From an uncultured Pseudomonadota bacterium (GTDB lineage Bacteria; Pseudomonadota; Gammaproteobacteria; Methylococcales; Methylomonadaceae): DNA of 37,855 bases. The translations under genes and the position numbers were made by a program. This document shows, piece by piece, positions 10,868 to 16,541 of this stretch. The DNA lies in NCBI GenBank assembly GCA_903953455.1, contig CAJBJW010000364.1, positions 1 to 37,855 of the forward strand. Direction: 5' to 3'. Below the pieces are notes generated by a model. That model did not search any database and was not told the origin of the DNA. It was given only the letters and a program-made list of their open reading frames with translations. Positions within the stretch are counted from its first letter, which is position 1, and every line of letters starts with the position of its first letter.

Positions 10868-11854
10868 TTAAGCTTCTAGAGCAGCTAAACGGTTCGCTAA
10901 CAATTCTTCCAAAACAACAAGCGCTTTTGCAAAACCATCAATGCCTTCTGCAAGTTTTTCTGAAGCCATACGGTTTTCAGCATGCATATGCTCAAACGTT
11001 GCATGATCAACACTAATTTTCTCAATTGACGATGCAGCAGCGTTCTCTACTGTCAATTTACGTGGCAATTCACCCTGTGTTTTTTGTAATTCATCAAGTA
11101 ATGAAGGTGCAATTGTCAGTAAATCACTACCTGCTAATTCTGTAATTTCGCCAACGTTACGGAAACTTGCGCCCATAACTTCAGTGTTGTAACCGAATTT
11201 TTTATAATAATTATAAATTTCAGTAACAGATACAACACCCGGATCTTCAGCAGGCGTATATGAATCACGACCTGTATCTTTTTTGTACCAATCTAAAATA
11301 CGACCCACAAAAGGTGAAATTAACGTAATACCATTTTCAGCACACGCAATCGCTTGATGCAAACCAAACAGTAATGTTAAGTTACAGTGAATACCTTCTT
11401 TCTCTAAAACTGCTGCAGCTTGGATACCTTCCCATGTTGCTGCAATTTTAATCAATACACGCTTACGATCAATGCCTGCGGCTTCGTACTGCGCGATTAA
11501 TTCACGTCCTTTGGTAACGGTCGCAGCGGTATCAAAAGATAAACGTGCGTCTACTTCTGTTGAAACGCGACCAGGAATGATTTCTAAAATTTTCAAACCA
11601 AACGAGACGGCTAAACGATCAAACGCCAATGTGACAACATCCGCTGCAGATGCACTTGCACCTAAAGTCCCACGCGCCCCTTTCAATGTATCATCAACAA
11701 TACCTTGATATTGTGGCATTTGAGCAGCTGCTGTGATTAAAGACGGGTTTGTTGTTGCATCACGCGGCGTAAAAGCTTCAATAGCTTGAATATCACCAGT
11801 ATCTGCCACAACTACTGTGACTTCTTTCAATTGCTCAAGTAAAGACTTACTCAT
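10868..11854 (-). CDS. tal: Transaldolase
   Basis: 328 aa; '[23 protein letters not shown]', '[31 protein letters not shown]', '[13 protein letters not shown]'. Confidence 0.97.
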
Positions 11855-11894: not shown

Positions 11895-12497
11895 TTAGCG
11901 TTGACCTTGCAAGTATTTTTCAACACCTGTCACAGCAACACTTTCAACCACAGCGTTTACGACCGCAATTGCTTCAGCTTTAGCTTGAGAAGCCGTTACA
12001 AGAGCTTGTCTGGCTAAATATTTACTGACACTGCTTGTAGTTGTTTCAGGACGACTTTGCAAATAACTTTCAACGCTAGTTGTTTTTTGTTTTGGCGGTG
12101 TATGTCGATCTGCTACATTTTTTTTAAGCATATACTTCGCGACACCACTCATAGGCGTGTTAATCTGACTTGCCAAATAACGTTCAACACCAGATTTTAC
12201 AACAGGTGCACTATCTTTATTGTTATTTAAATATTTTGCAACACCCGTTAACACGACAACAGGCTTATTTCGCTCGTTAATAGCTTGTCGTGCTAAATAC
12301 TTAGCCACACCACTAGGTTGATTGAGCTCTTGACTTTTCAAGTATTTATCAACTTTACTGAGCGAAGGTGTTGTTGTTTGGATTTCTAAATAACGACTTA
12401 CACCAGTCCCATCATGAGCTAAAATAGCATTTCGCGCTGAGGATGTCGTGTAAGCATTTTCAGAATGTGTACCAAAAAGACTTGAAAAAAAGCCCAT
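11895..12497 (-). CDS. Uncharacterised repeat protein with nine [ST][GS]Vx[KR]Y[LM]xxQ motifs (RuMP-cluster protein 2)
   Basis: 200 aa; motif copies TGVSRYLEIQ, SKVDKYLKSQ, SGVAKYLARQ, TGVAKYLNNN, SGVERYLASQ, SGVAKYMLKK, TSVESYLQSR, SSVSKYLARQ, TGVEKYLQGQ; no apparent signal peptide or TM helix. Confidence 0.9.
   Translation of the reverse strand: MGFFSSLFGTHSENAYTTSSARNAILAHDGTGVSRYLEIQTTTPSLSKVDKYLKSQELNQPSGVAKYLARQAINERNKPVVVLTGVAKYLNNNKDSAPVVKSGVERYLASQINTPMSGVAKYMLKKNVADRHTPPKQKTTSVESYLQSRPETTTSSVSKYLARQALVTASQAKAEAIAVVNAVVESVAVTGVEKYLQGQR
11901..12407 (-). repeat. Protein-level repeat array (9 GVxKYL motifs)
   Basis: Conserved Tyr at residues 36, 52, 67, 89, 107, 122, 145, 160 and 195 (spacings 16, 15, 22, 18, 15, 23, 15, 35). 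Confidence 0.9.
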
Positions 12498-12499
12498 AA

Positions 12500-13138
12500 C
12501 TACCCCCGATCTGTATCGTTTTGAGCAGATGATTTGTGTGCGACATTTTGTCTAGCAATATATCGAGCCACATTTGTTGGAATCGTGTTGCGTTCTAAAT
12601 ATTTACTTACTCCTGATACTTTAGGAATTCTAGCATTTAAGTAACGTGTTACACCCGTTTCACCTGAAGCATAAACGCTATGGTGAGATACAGTTGAAGA
12701 CGTTTTAGAGCTTTTAGCCAAAGCAAAGCCACCTACTGCTGCCGCCGCTAACAAACCTAAAAACAACAAATTAGAATCACCTTCTTTTTCTACTTTGGCA
12801 ACAGATACATTTTCACTCACAGTTGATGCTGATTGAATTGAAGGTGTTGATTTGGTATGTTTATAGTTTTCATCACTATAAAGCACTTTAGGCTCGAAAT
12901 TTGTTGCAGGGTATCTTGCATCGAAAGCTTCTTCAACTACTGGTGCAGGAGTTGCCGCAGGTGCAGATTTCGTTGTTGCTGCGGGAGCAGCCGGTGCAGA
13001 AGATTTTACAGAAGCGTCTTGATATAGAACTTTAGGTTCAAAATCTGCTGCTGGATATTGATTACCAGCAATTGCGACAAATGAATTGGCCATCAGCAAC
13101 GTGGTGACAGCAATTTGTAGTAAATTATTTTTTTTCAC
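12500..13138 (-). CDS. Uncharacterised exported/membrane-anchored protein with duplicated YPAxxFEPKVLYxD motif and three C-terminal GVxKYL motifs (RuMP-cluster protein 1)
   Basis: 212 aa, GTG start; signal-like MKKNNLLQIAVTTLLMANSFVAIAG; YPAADFEPKVLYQD and YPATNFEPKVLYSD; Ala/Pro linker; hydrophobic LLFLGLLAAAAVGGFAL followed by AKSSK; then TGVTRYLNAR, SGVSKYLERN, TNVARYIARQ. Confidence 0.88.
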   Translation of the reverse strand: MKKNNLLQIAVTTLLMANSFVAIAGNQYPAADFEPKVLYQDASVKSSAPAAPAATTKSAPAATPAPVVEEAFDARYPATNFEPKVLYSDENYKHTKSTPSIQSASTVSENVSVAKVEKEGDSNLLFLGLLAAAAVGGFALAKSSKTSSTVSHHSVYASGETGVTRYLNARIPKVSGVSKYLERNTIPTNVARYIARQNVAHKSSAQNDTDRG

Positions 13139-13219: not shown

Positions 13220-15205
13220 TTAAAGTACCGCTTTAACGTGTTTGACTACATTTTCAACGGTGAAACCAAAATGCTCAAATAATACGCCACCAGGTGCAGA
13301 CTCACCAAACGTATCAATACCAACTACTTCACCTTCTAAGCCAACATATTTACGCCAAAAATCAGATACACCTGCTTCAATAGCGACGCGTTTCACGCCA
13401 GGTATCAAAACACTGTCTTTATAAGCTTTATCTTGACGATCAAAAACATTAGTTGAAGGCATTGAAACAACTCGTGCATGAATCCCTTCTGCTTCAAGTG
13501 CAACTTGCGATTTAATCGCTAATGCAACTTCAGAACCTGTCGCAATTAATACTACATCTGCTTTACTTGATGCTTCAGCTATAATATAAGCACCTTTACG
13601 CATTGCTACAATTTGAGCTTCATCGTGTGCAATCGCAGGAATAGCTTGTCGACTTAACACTAAGCTTGTTGGGCCATTATGACGTTCAATAGCACTTACC
13701 CAAGCAACAGCTGTTTCAGTTGAATCAGCTGGACGCCAAACATCCATATTTGGAATGTAACGTAATCCAGATGTATTTTCGATAGGTTGATGTGTTGGAC
13801 CGTCTTCGCCTTGACCAATAGAATCATGGGTTAACACAGCAATAGTTCGCTGTTTCATCAATGCGGCCATGCGTAATGCACTTTTTGCATAATCTGAGAA
13901 CATATGGAATGTGCCACCAAATGGAATAAATCCACCGTGCAAGGCCATACCATTCATGATGGCATACATACCAAATTCACGAACGCCATAAGAAATATAG
14001 TTACCAGGTTTTTTACCACTAACGTGTGTAAAACTTGGACAGCTAGTCAAATTTGAACCCGTTAAATCAGCAGAACCACCTAAAAATTCAGGTAACGTTG
14101 CCGCTAAACCGGCAATGACTTTTTGTGATGATTGACGAGATGCTAAATTTTCAGCTTTTTCGTTAAATGCGTGGATTAATTCGCTCGTTACAGTTGCCCA
14201 GTTAGACGGCAGCTCTCCTGCTACACGACGTTTAAACTCCGCTGCTAATTCTGGATGTGCTACTGCATAAGCATCGAATTTTGCATTCCATGCCGCTTCT
14301 ACTGAATTTCCTTTTGCTTTTGCATCCCAACCTGCGTAAACATTTTCTGGAATAACAAAAGGAGCATGCGTCCAGCCTAACGCTTCACGCGTTAACGCAA
14401 CTTCTGCATCACCTAATGCTGAGCCGTGACAATCGTGACTGCCACTTTTATTTGGTGAACCAAAACCAATAATGGTTTTGCAGCAAATCATAGAGGGCTT
14501 ATCTGTTACCGCTTTTGCAGCAGTCACTGCAGCATTTATTGCATCTGCATCGTGACCATCTACAGATTGAACATGCCAACCGTAAGCTTCAAAACGTTTT
14601 ACTGTGTCATCAGTGTACCAGCCATCAATATGGCCATCAATAGAGATGTTATTGTCATCCCAAAATGCAACTAATTTACCAAGTCCCCAAGTACCGGCTA
14701 ATGCACACGCTTCATGAGAAACGCCTTCCATTAAACAACCATCACCTAAAAACACATATGTATGGTGGTCAACAATTTCATGGCCTGGACGGTTGAATTG
14801 GTCAGCCAATAATTTCTCTGCCATGGCAAAACCAACACCGTTGGTGACACCTTGACCTAATGGACCTGTTGTAGTTTCGATACCTGGCGCATAACTGTAT
14901 TCAGGATGTCCTGCGCATTTGGAATGCAATTGACGAAACGACTGCAATTCTTTCATTGGCAGGTCGTAGCCAGATAAGTGCAGAAGAGAGTAAATTAGCA
15001 TTGAACCATGACCATTTGATAATACAAAACGATCGCGATCTGCCCAATTTGGATTTGTTGGATTATGTTTTAAATGGTCGTTCCACAACACTTCAGCGAT
15101 GTCTGCCATACCCATTGGCGCACCGGGGTGTCCTGAATTGGCTTTTTGTACTGCATCCATGCTTAAAGCGCGTATGGCATTCGCTAATTCTCTACGCGAA
15201 GTCAT
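13220..15205 (-). CDS. tkt: Transketolase
   Basis: 661 aa; '[21 protein letters not shown]', '[25 protein letters not shown]', '[18 protein letters not shown]'. Confidence 0.98.
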
Positions 15206-15344: not shown

Positions 15345-15878
15345 TTATTCTAAATTAGCGTGTCTTGAACGCATAATCTCTTCAGGAATACCTTTCTCAT
15401 GAATAATATGAGAAATAGTAGATTCCAAAAAGAGCAATGTTGACAATTCAAATACAGTCCCCATTGGCATCCCAACCACTTTGCCATACAAATCAGAACG
15501 ACCAATTTGGAACACACCGTCTGCCATATCACCAATAGTTGATTTTGATTGTGCTGAAATCAACATGATTTTAGCGCCAATTTTTTTCGCACTTTTAGTG
15601 AACGCAACAAGCTGTTCCGTTTCACCTGATCCTGAGATGACAATGAGTAAATCGCCTTCTTGAATGCTCGGGGTAACGATTTCACCGACAACATTAACGT
15701 TGTAACCACCATGCACCAACCGCATTGCAAAGAAATTGCCGACAAGTTTTGAACGACCTGCGCCCGCAATGAAAATGCGAGCAGCTTCATCGAGCATTGC
15801 AGTCAGTTTTTCATCGTATGATTCCTCAGTTGCCTCAAGGATGCCTGTGATTTTTTCTAAGATTAGCTCTTGGTGCAT
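15345..15878 (-). CDS. hxlB: 6-phospho-3-hexuloisomerase
   Basis: 177 aa SIS-domain; 'IFIAGAGRSKLVGNFFAMRLVHGGYNVNVVGEIVTPSIQEGDLLIVISGSGETEQL', 'MPMGTVFELSTLLFLE'; adjacent to hexulose-6-phosphate synthase. Confidence 0.96.
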   Translation of the reverse strand: MHQELILEKITGILEATEESYDEKLTAMLDEAARIFIAGAGRSKLVGNFFAMRLVHGGYNVNVVGEIVTPSIQEGDLLIVISGSGETEQLVAFTKSAKKIGAKIMLISAQSKSTIGDMADGVFQIGRSDLYGKVVGMPMGTVFELSTLLFLESTISHIIHEKGIPEEIMRSRHANLE

Positions 15879-15890
15879 AAGGATTCCTAA

Positions 15891-16541
15891 TTAAACTGCG
15901 TCTACTAATTCACGAATTTCACGTGCCGCTTCTGCTGGAGAAGCTGCACCGTAAATTGCTGCACCAACCACGATGATGCTAGCGCCAGCGCGAACTACAT
16001 CTTGAACGGTTTTAGTATTGATACCGCCAGCAACTGAAATACGAACGTTTAATCCTAAAGATGCAACCAAGCTTAAATCTGCAAAAGGTGTGTGACCTGC
16101 TGCTTGAGCGTCTAAACCAGTGTGAACACCGATAATTTGCGCACCAGCGTCAACAGTTGCACGTGCGCAAGCTGCTTTGTCATCAACATTGATTAAATCA
16201 ATTTGCGCTTCAGCTGCGTGTGCATTAGCTGCTTTGATAACACCTTTGCAAGTTGCTAAACCTGAAACACCTAATACTGTACAAATATCCGCACCAGCTG
16301 CATAAAAAGGTGTTGCTTCATATTCGCCAGCATCCATTGTTTTCAAATCAACTAACAATAATTTGTCAGGGAATTCAGCACGCAATGCTCTAACTAAGTT
16401 AACACCGTTGTGTTTAATGCAAGGTGTGCCGATTTCAAAAATATCAACAAAAGGCGCAACTTGTTTCGCTAATGAAACTGTTGCATCGAAATCTAATGAA
16501 TCTAATGCCATTTGAATTAATGGTCTTGCCATGATGTACAC
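15891..16541 (-). CDS. hxlA: 3-hexulose-6-phosphate synthase
   Basis: 'MARPLIQMALDSLDFDATVSLAKQVAPFVDIFEIGTPCIKHNG', 'LLLVDLKTMDAGEYEATPFYAAGADICTVLG'. Start may be internal MARPL (16532). Confidence 0.97.
   Translation of the reverse strand: MYIMARPLIQMALDSLDFDATVSLAKQVAPFVDIFEIGTPCIKHNGVNLVRALRAEFPDKLLLVDLKTMDAGEYEATPFYAAGADICTVLGVSGLATCKGVIKAANAHAAEAQIDLINVDDKAACARATVDAGAQIIGVHTGLDAQAAGHTPFADLSLVASLGLNVRISVAGGINTKTVQDVVRAGASIIVVGAAIYGAASPAEAAREIRELVDAV

Follow-up and report, generated by a model that had tools for sequence, protein, structure and literature searches.

Two motif-sharing proteins encoded in a RuMP gene cluster: a candidate membrane-tethered scaffold for formaldehyde assimilation

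Two adjacent genes among the RuMP formaldehyde-fixation genes of the window (the whole stretch of DNA analysed, 37,855 nucleotides) encode proteins, here called P2 and P1, that share a short repeated motif, and genes for this motif adjoin stand-alone hps, the gene for hexulose-6-phosphate synthase, in almost every gammaproteobacterial methanotroph sampled. The observation of P1 and P2 is confirmed, the link of the motif genes to RuMP genes is strong, and the motif family is apparently undescribed and unnamed. That P2 and P1 together form a membrane tether plus a multivalent linker for formaldehyde assimilation, with Hps as the likeliest client, is a reading to which we assign about an even chance.

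Architecture of the locus and of the two proteins

P2 (212 aa, GTG start) and P1 (200 aa) are separated by 2 bp, and the minus-strand order is hps, hpi, tkt, P2, P1, tal, with intergenic gaps of 2-139 bases. Exact placement of the open reading frames (ORFs) bears out the preliminary description of this DNA, which had the two genes adjacent between tkt and tal, on the same strand as hps-hpi-tkt-tal. The features are:

15891..16541, minus strand: hps, hexulose-6-phosphate synthase (TIGR03128, 243 bits, above cut-off)
15345..15878, minus strand: hpi, phosphohexuloisomerase (ORF, named from gene order and the preliminary description; tblastn marker)
13220..15205, minus strand: tkt, transketolase (ORF, named from gene order and the preliminary description; tblastn marker)
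12500..13138, minus strand: P2, putative membrane-tethered motif protein (ORF; 35 relatives of the same layout aligned, from 16 genera)
13067..13138, minus strand: P2 signal-peptide-like segment, residues 1-24, putatively cleaved (invariant A24; model helix 3-24)
12878..13057, minus strand: putative periplasmic part of P2 with two YPA-x-x-F-x-P-x-V-x-Y repeats, residues 28-39 and 76-87 (invariant columns)
12716..12772, minus strand: predicted transmembrane helix of P2, residues about 123-141 (model helix and charge bias)
12548..12658, minus strand: putative cytoplasmic tail of P2 with 3 motif copies, V163, V177 and V190 (alignment and motif count)
11895..12497, minus strand: P1, soluble multi-motif protein (ORF; AlphaFold pLDDT 62, pTM 0.18)
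11907..12407, minus strand: P1 motif array, 9 copies, V33, V49, V64, V86, V104, V119, V142, V157 and V192 (count and predicted helices)
10868..11854, minus strand: tal, transaldolase (ORF, named from gene order and the preliminary description)

V-x-x-Y-[LMI] occurs three times in P2 and nine times in P1, as against means of 0.09 and 0.12 copies, respectively, in composition-preserving shuffles (maximum 3), so that the counts of three and nine given earlier are right for this core. The longer pattern to which they had been attached, [ST]-[GS]-V-x-[KR]-Y-[LM]-x-x-Q, matches strictly only 0 times in P2 and 5 times in P1 (2 and 7 without the final Q), and is therefore to be read as a consensus, in which capacity it is accurate: among 829 copies of V-x-x-[YF]-[LMIV] in 122 unique relatives, where those positions were fixed by the search, the free positions are T/S in 96%, G in 71%, K/R in 92% and, three residues past L, Q in 51%, and the aromatic position is Y in 97% and F in 2%. 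Motifs in the window are spaced by 13-23 residues with a single gap of 35 (15-23 and one of 35 in P1; median 20 in relatives). P1 has 6 to 18 copies in most genomes of the window's family, and the proposed multivalency is upheld by relatives with up to 17-18 copies in one protein.

Both genes are under purifying selection, the motif most strongly. Whole-gene dN/dS against congeners is 0.10-0.22 for P1 (six congeners) and 0.15-0.27 for P2 (five congeners), with 0-0.07 at motif positions versus 0.17-0.32 elsewhere, synonymous sites being near saturation in distant pairs. Together with the shuffles, these values rule out a chance or non-coding origin of P1 and P2. No tandem DNA repeat was found over the P1/P2 region, and Rfam and tRNA scans of the region gave no match.

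P1 and P2 are predicted to be largely disordered. The AlphaFold model of P1 (mean pLDDT 62, pTM 0.18) has no globular fold but contains nine helical segments, each beginning within about one residue of a motif V; the earlier suggestion that S/T-G caps a short helix starting at V is thus matched at nine of nine P1 motifs, at low confidence. In many relatives P1 begins with a short N-terminus of hydrophobic and aromatic character. In the P2 model (pLDDT 58, pTM 0.17) helices appear at the N-terminus, the membrane segment and the three motifs. Across the 35 P2 relatives A24, just ahead of the first YPA repeat, is invariant, as are Y28, P29, A30, F33 and P35 of the first repeat, P77, A78, F81, P83 and V85 of the second, and V163, Y166, V177 and Y180 of the motifs; the YPA repeats, which within the window occur in P2 alone, are as conserved as the motif. 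Net charge is -2.9 before the membrane helix and +3.5 after it, and the negative-then-positive bias recurs in 35 of 35 relatives; by the positive-inside rule, therefore, the motifs of P2 are expected in the cytoplasm and the YPA repeats in the periplasm. The division into one membrane and one soluble protein made in the preliminary description thus stands, with the motif side cytoplasmic by charge bias.

Linkage to stand-alone hps and distribution of the motif

Of 301 genomes from the order, 229 were matched with a single query, and a profile added several more that this query had not detected. The genes of the window's family (f1) usually follow the arrangement hps-hpi-tkt-P2-P1-tal. Families f3 and f5 have the motif gene between tkt and tal, f4 usually has it just upstream of hps-hpi (between tkt and tal in genus g37), and f10, a family outside the order, has it between hps and tal; we infer that f1 is Methylomonadaceae and f10 Methylophagaceae. 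Because gene order varies between families, the link exceeds frozen synteny. Some close relatives of the window's locus come from MAGs labelled Methylococcaceae or uncultured proteobacteria.

Linkage was counted in 28 near-complete genomes, picked in part for the motif matches that most of them had given in earlier searches. Of their 52 motif loci, 39 have hps no more than 10 kb away, where 0.5 would be expected by chance. Within the same distance a motif gene accompanies 42 of the 43 stand-alone hps copies but none of the 11 fused hps-hpi copies (recognised by an open frame of 396 aa or more). This contrast is drawn without phylogenetic correction, and its Fisher value of 1e-10, which counts related copies as if they were independent, is a guide only. 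The one stand-alone hps lacking a motif gene is in genome G005, which also encodes, away from hps, a membrane protein with two YPA repeats and no motif (L251:7534-8154).

Which enzyme is the constant neighbour can be read from 61 RuMP-linked loci, drawn from 28 genera in 5 families, where the proteins encoded in the window served as tblastn queries to mark hps, hpi, tkt and tal: within 5.5 kb and on the same strand, Hps is present at 61 loci, Hpi at 57, Tkt at 52 and Tal at 46. These loci were preselected as RuMP-linked and unlinked loci were left out, so the table ranks the enzymes and is no measure of linkage. The preliminary description had proposed linkage to all four enzymes; RuMP linkage holds across genera and families, but Hps alone is constant. 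Where hps-hpi-tkt is tandemly duplicated in g2 genomes (L058, L061) the motif gene is repeated alongside, and lone extra hps copies adjoin a motif gene (L055 and f10 loci). Two further observations concern individual loci and residues. L125 (genome G018, f6) and L126 (f3) have near-identical gene layouts, apparently representing one contig, and one of the two contigs may be misbinned; L125 was omitted from the table. Residue 208 of Hps (window 15918-15920) is E in 67 of 69 motif-linked Hps proteins, not E in the 11 fused enzymes, and Q and K in two further Hps proteins; it is the one position that discriminates linked from fused Hps and a possible docking-site clue, but as a single position too weak to use.

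Beyond the order, a class-wide sample of 274 genomes contains five with a true Hps, over the cut-off, and exactly these five have the motif. Four of them reach E 1e-4 with the motif profile; in the fifth, G003, whose reading frames are broken, the match is at 3.9e-4 and lies beside hps. The five represent two deep lineages, and linkage and co-occurrence rest on Methylococcales and f10. The other 269 class genomes gave no match to the profile at 1e-4, a phylum-wide sample of 349 genomes was matched in the window's own genome only, and the plasmid records searched gave no match; the samples contained no identified Methylophilaceae RuMP methylotrophs. Homologs lying mostly outside methylotrophs, which the preliminary description had named as a ground for abandoning its proposal, thus did not turn up in the class and phylum samples. 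Since the system is also present in f10, an Hps-bearing family outside Methylococcales that is probably non-methanotrophic, it is not methane-specific.

The motif also occurs away from RuMP genes. Thirteen of the 52 motif loci in the 28 near-complete genomes are not near hps, and these mostly encode a third motif protein or a ChpA/PilL-type kinase. The third protein (about 260-320 aa) carries the motif four or five times and ends in a Cys/His-rich domain with the conserved signature C-x-x-T-x-K-G-x-x-C ... C-x-x-H; Pfam gave nothing above cut-off for it, and a match of its relatives to DPC2, a diatom pyrenoid component, was rejected as low complexity (17 bits versus a cut-off of 70). RuMP genes are absent from the stretches examined around its loci L123:8942-9769, L135:8779-9552 and L211-L216. 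Motif copies in f10 are found as well in frames of 1800-2050 aa, one of which, when examined, proved to be a ChpA/PilL-type kinase encoded beside PilG/H/I/J-like genes. It is about 2000 aa long and contains Hpt, CheW and receiver domains; in this kinase (L121:5748-11852) four motif copies sit in a linker at residues about 896-965. The motif proteins of f10 have neither the YPA repeat nor the membrane helix. That an unlinked third protein and a pilus chemosensory kinase contain it too implies that the motif is not RuMP-exclusive and is a reusable element, whose partner may be something other than Hps.

YPA repeats, too, are found elsewhere. Small secreted-looking proteins carry two or three YPA-x-x-F-x-P repeats (L238-L247, L249), and YPA proteins adjoin an SsuABC/NrtABC-like ABC transporter in nine genomes of eight genera. 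In g5 genomes (L051:7788-8066, L069, L071, L072) a secreted-looking protein of about 93 aa with YPA repeats only is encoded between tkt and the motif gene. At L250:7353-8132 a YPA-repeat tail is fused to a Polyketide_cyc2 (SRPBCC) domain behind a signal-peptide-like start; MxaD of methylotrophs is a member of the Polyketide_cyc2 fold family.

Proposed function and competing explanations

We propose that each [ST]-G-V-x-[KR]-Y-L copy would act as an N-capped short helix docking on a globular partner, most likely Hps. A single helix would anchor P2 in the inner membrane, its motifs facing the cytoplasm and its YPA repeats the periplasm, and P1 would carry many motifs along a disordered chain and cross-link client enzymes. 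Stand-alone Hps would thereby be clustered at the membrane, with Hpi, Tkt and Tal close by, and would catch the formaldehyde arriving from the periplasm. The genes, the motif and the selection acting on it, the linkage, the charge bias and the predicted disorder are what the analysis shows; protein binding by the motif, Hps as its partner and the formation of a cluster or condensate are what we infer. Hps is the best client candidate because it is the constant neighbour, because lone and duplicated hps copies are accompanied by a motif gene, and because the fused enzyme, which already joins two steps, is motif-linked nowhere in the sample. The scaffold advanced in the preliminary description accordingly survives in its linkage, helices, topology and multivalency, but not in an equal role for all four enzymes.

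A fairly unlikely alternative is that the motif binds another, more general partner, such as a membrane-organising, polar or intracytoplasmic-membrane factor, and that RuMP genes are its neighbours through a joint need in C1 growth; in that case the role of P1 and P2 would be to organise membranes or to position something besides RuMP enzymes. The third motif protein, at loci without RuMP genes in several genera, the motif copies in the long f10 frames with their kinase, and the hydrophobic, aromatic N-terminus of P1 all speak for such a partner. It fits poorly, however, with the finding that stand-alone hps is almost always linked and fused hps-hpi never, in the same genomes, and with the absence of the motif from the 269 genomes of the class that lack true Hps, a group in which ChpA-type kinases as well as general membrane factors are widespread. 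A formaldehyde- or flux-sensing regulatory module, altering the activity or expression of Hps and not its place, would agree with the sensor-like layout of periplasmic part, single membrane helix and cytoplasmic tail, and with recurrence of the motif in a chemosensory kinase. Yet no catalytic or ligand-binding domain was recognised with Pfam or NCBIfam, both proteins are predicted to be largely unfolded, and as many as 17-18 motif copies are hard to account for by regulation alone, which makes this explanation improbable.

An extension of the main explanation would make P2 a trans-membrane adaptor. Its YPA repeats would dock a periplasmic C1 protein (e.g. methanol dehydrogenase or a factor associated with it) and its motifs would bind Hps or P1, placing formaldehyde production directly opposite its capture on the two sides of the membrane. 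Conservation of the YPA repeats on a par with the motif, and their recurrence in small secreted-looking proteins and in the Polyketide_cyc2 fusion, are in its favour; no methanol dehydrogenase gene was a neighbour at the loci read, however, and the f10 motif proteins manage without YPA repeat or membrane helix, and we regard the adaptor as unlikely. Fairly unlikely, too, is the most far-reaching form of the proposal, that gammaproteobacterial RuMP bacteria build a membrane-tethered, multivalent formaldehyde-fixation condensate in which P2 connects the site of formaldehyde production in the periplasm with that of its capture by Hps in the cytoplasm; if true, C1 assimilation outside the Calvin cycle would have its own counterpart of the pyrenoid or carboxysome.

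Should the motif dock Hps, major aerobic methane consumers would possess a natural scaffold for formaldehyde fixation, which would help to explain how a toxic intermediate produced in the periplasm is captured in the cytoplasm and would offer a natural module for clustering RuMP enzymes in methanol- or methane-based biotechnology. Ferenci, Strom and Quayle are said to have described the Hps of Methylococcus in 1974 as a particulate enzyme. The RuMP operons of Methylococcus capsulatus Bath, which we take to include a P2 relative, were depleted in a CRISPRi screen, an operon-level result (PMC13108547). Even without a scaffold function, a motif family tightly bound to stand-alone hps in most sampled methanotroph genomes is a clear experimental target.

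Relation to known enzyme assemblies

Searches of Pfam and NCBIfam with P1 and P2 returned nothing significant, nor did a PDB sequence search and a fold search with the P1 model. A literature search with the motif letters found no paper naming the motif and nothing relevant; a known unrelated function of the motif, which the preliminary description had held would count against a scaffold, was thus encountered in neither the family libraries nor the literature searched.

Assembly of RuMP enzymes has precedents. Fusions and complexes of Mdh, Hps and Phi have been engineered, clustering the enzymes for better formaldehyde capture (PMC8879981); these are man-made, whereas P1 and P2 would be a natural, separate scaffold. 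The fused Hps-Hpi enzymes of Methylococcales are likewise a natural way of holding the first two RuMP steps together, but a covalent one, and their 11 copies have no motif gene within 10 kb.

The motif of CsoS2, a protein of alpha-carboxysomes, differs from that of P1 and P2. Carboxysome shell genes were not recognised by eye among the neighbouring ORFs, and Pfam and NCBIfam held no carboxysome-protein match for P1 or P2 up to E 1, so that no similarity to CsoS2 was found at this level. The likeness is one of design: CsoS2 is disordered, contains repeats and ties a carbon-fixing enzyme into a larger assembly (PMC11570498). Rubisco linkers have been sought as largely disordered proteins with repeating structured elements spaced 20-120 residues apart (PMC11570498). 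P1 shows the disorder in its model (pLDDT 62, pTM 0.18) and, at low confidence, the repeated elements in its nine helices, while its gaps of 15-23 and 35 residues, with a median of 20 in relatives, fall at the lower limit. Because the spacing of 13-23 residues lies at or below the 20-120 range, adjacent motifs may not bridge two large enzymes.

The pyrenoid linkers EPYC1 and CsLinker resemble P1, as modelled, in being largely disordered chains with repeated short helices and, in the reading proposed for P1 and P2, in the tie to a carbon-fixing enzyme. The organisms and the enzyme are different, no sequence relation is shown, and binding and condensation by P1 and P2 are only proposed. Unlike these linkers, P1 has a putatively membrane-anchored partner, P2, that carries the same motif.
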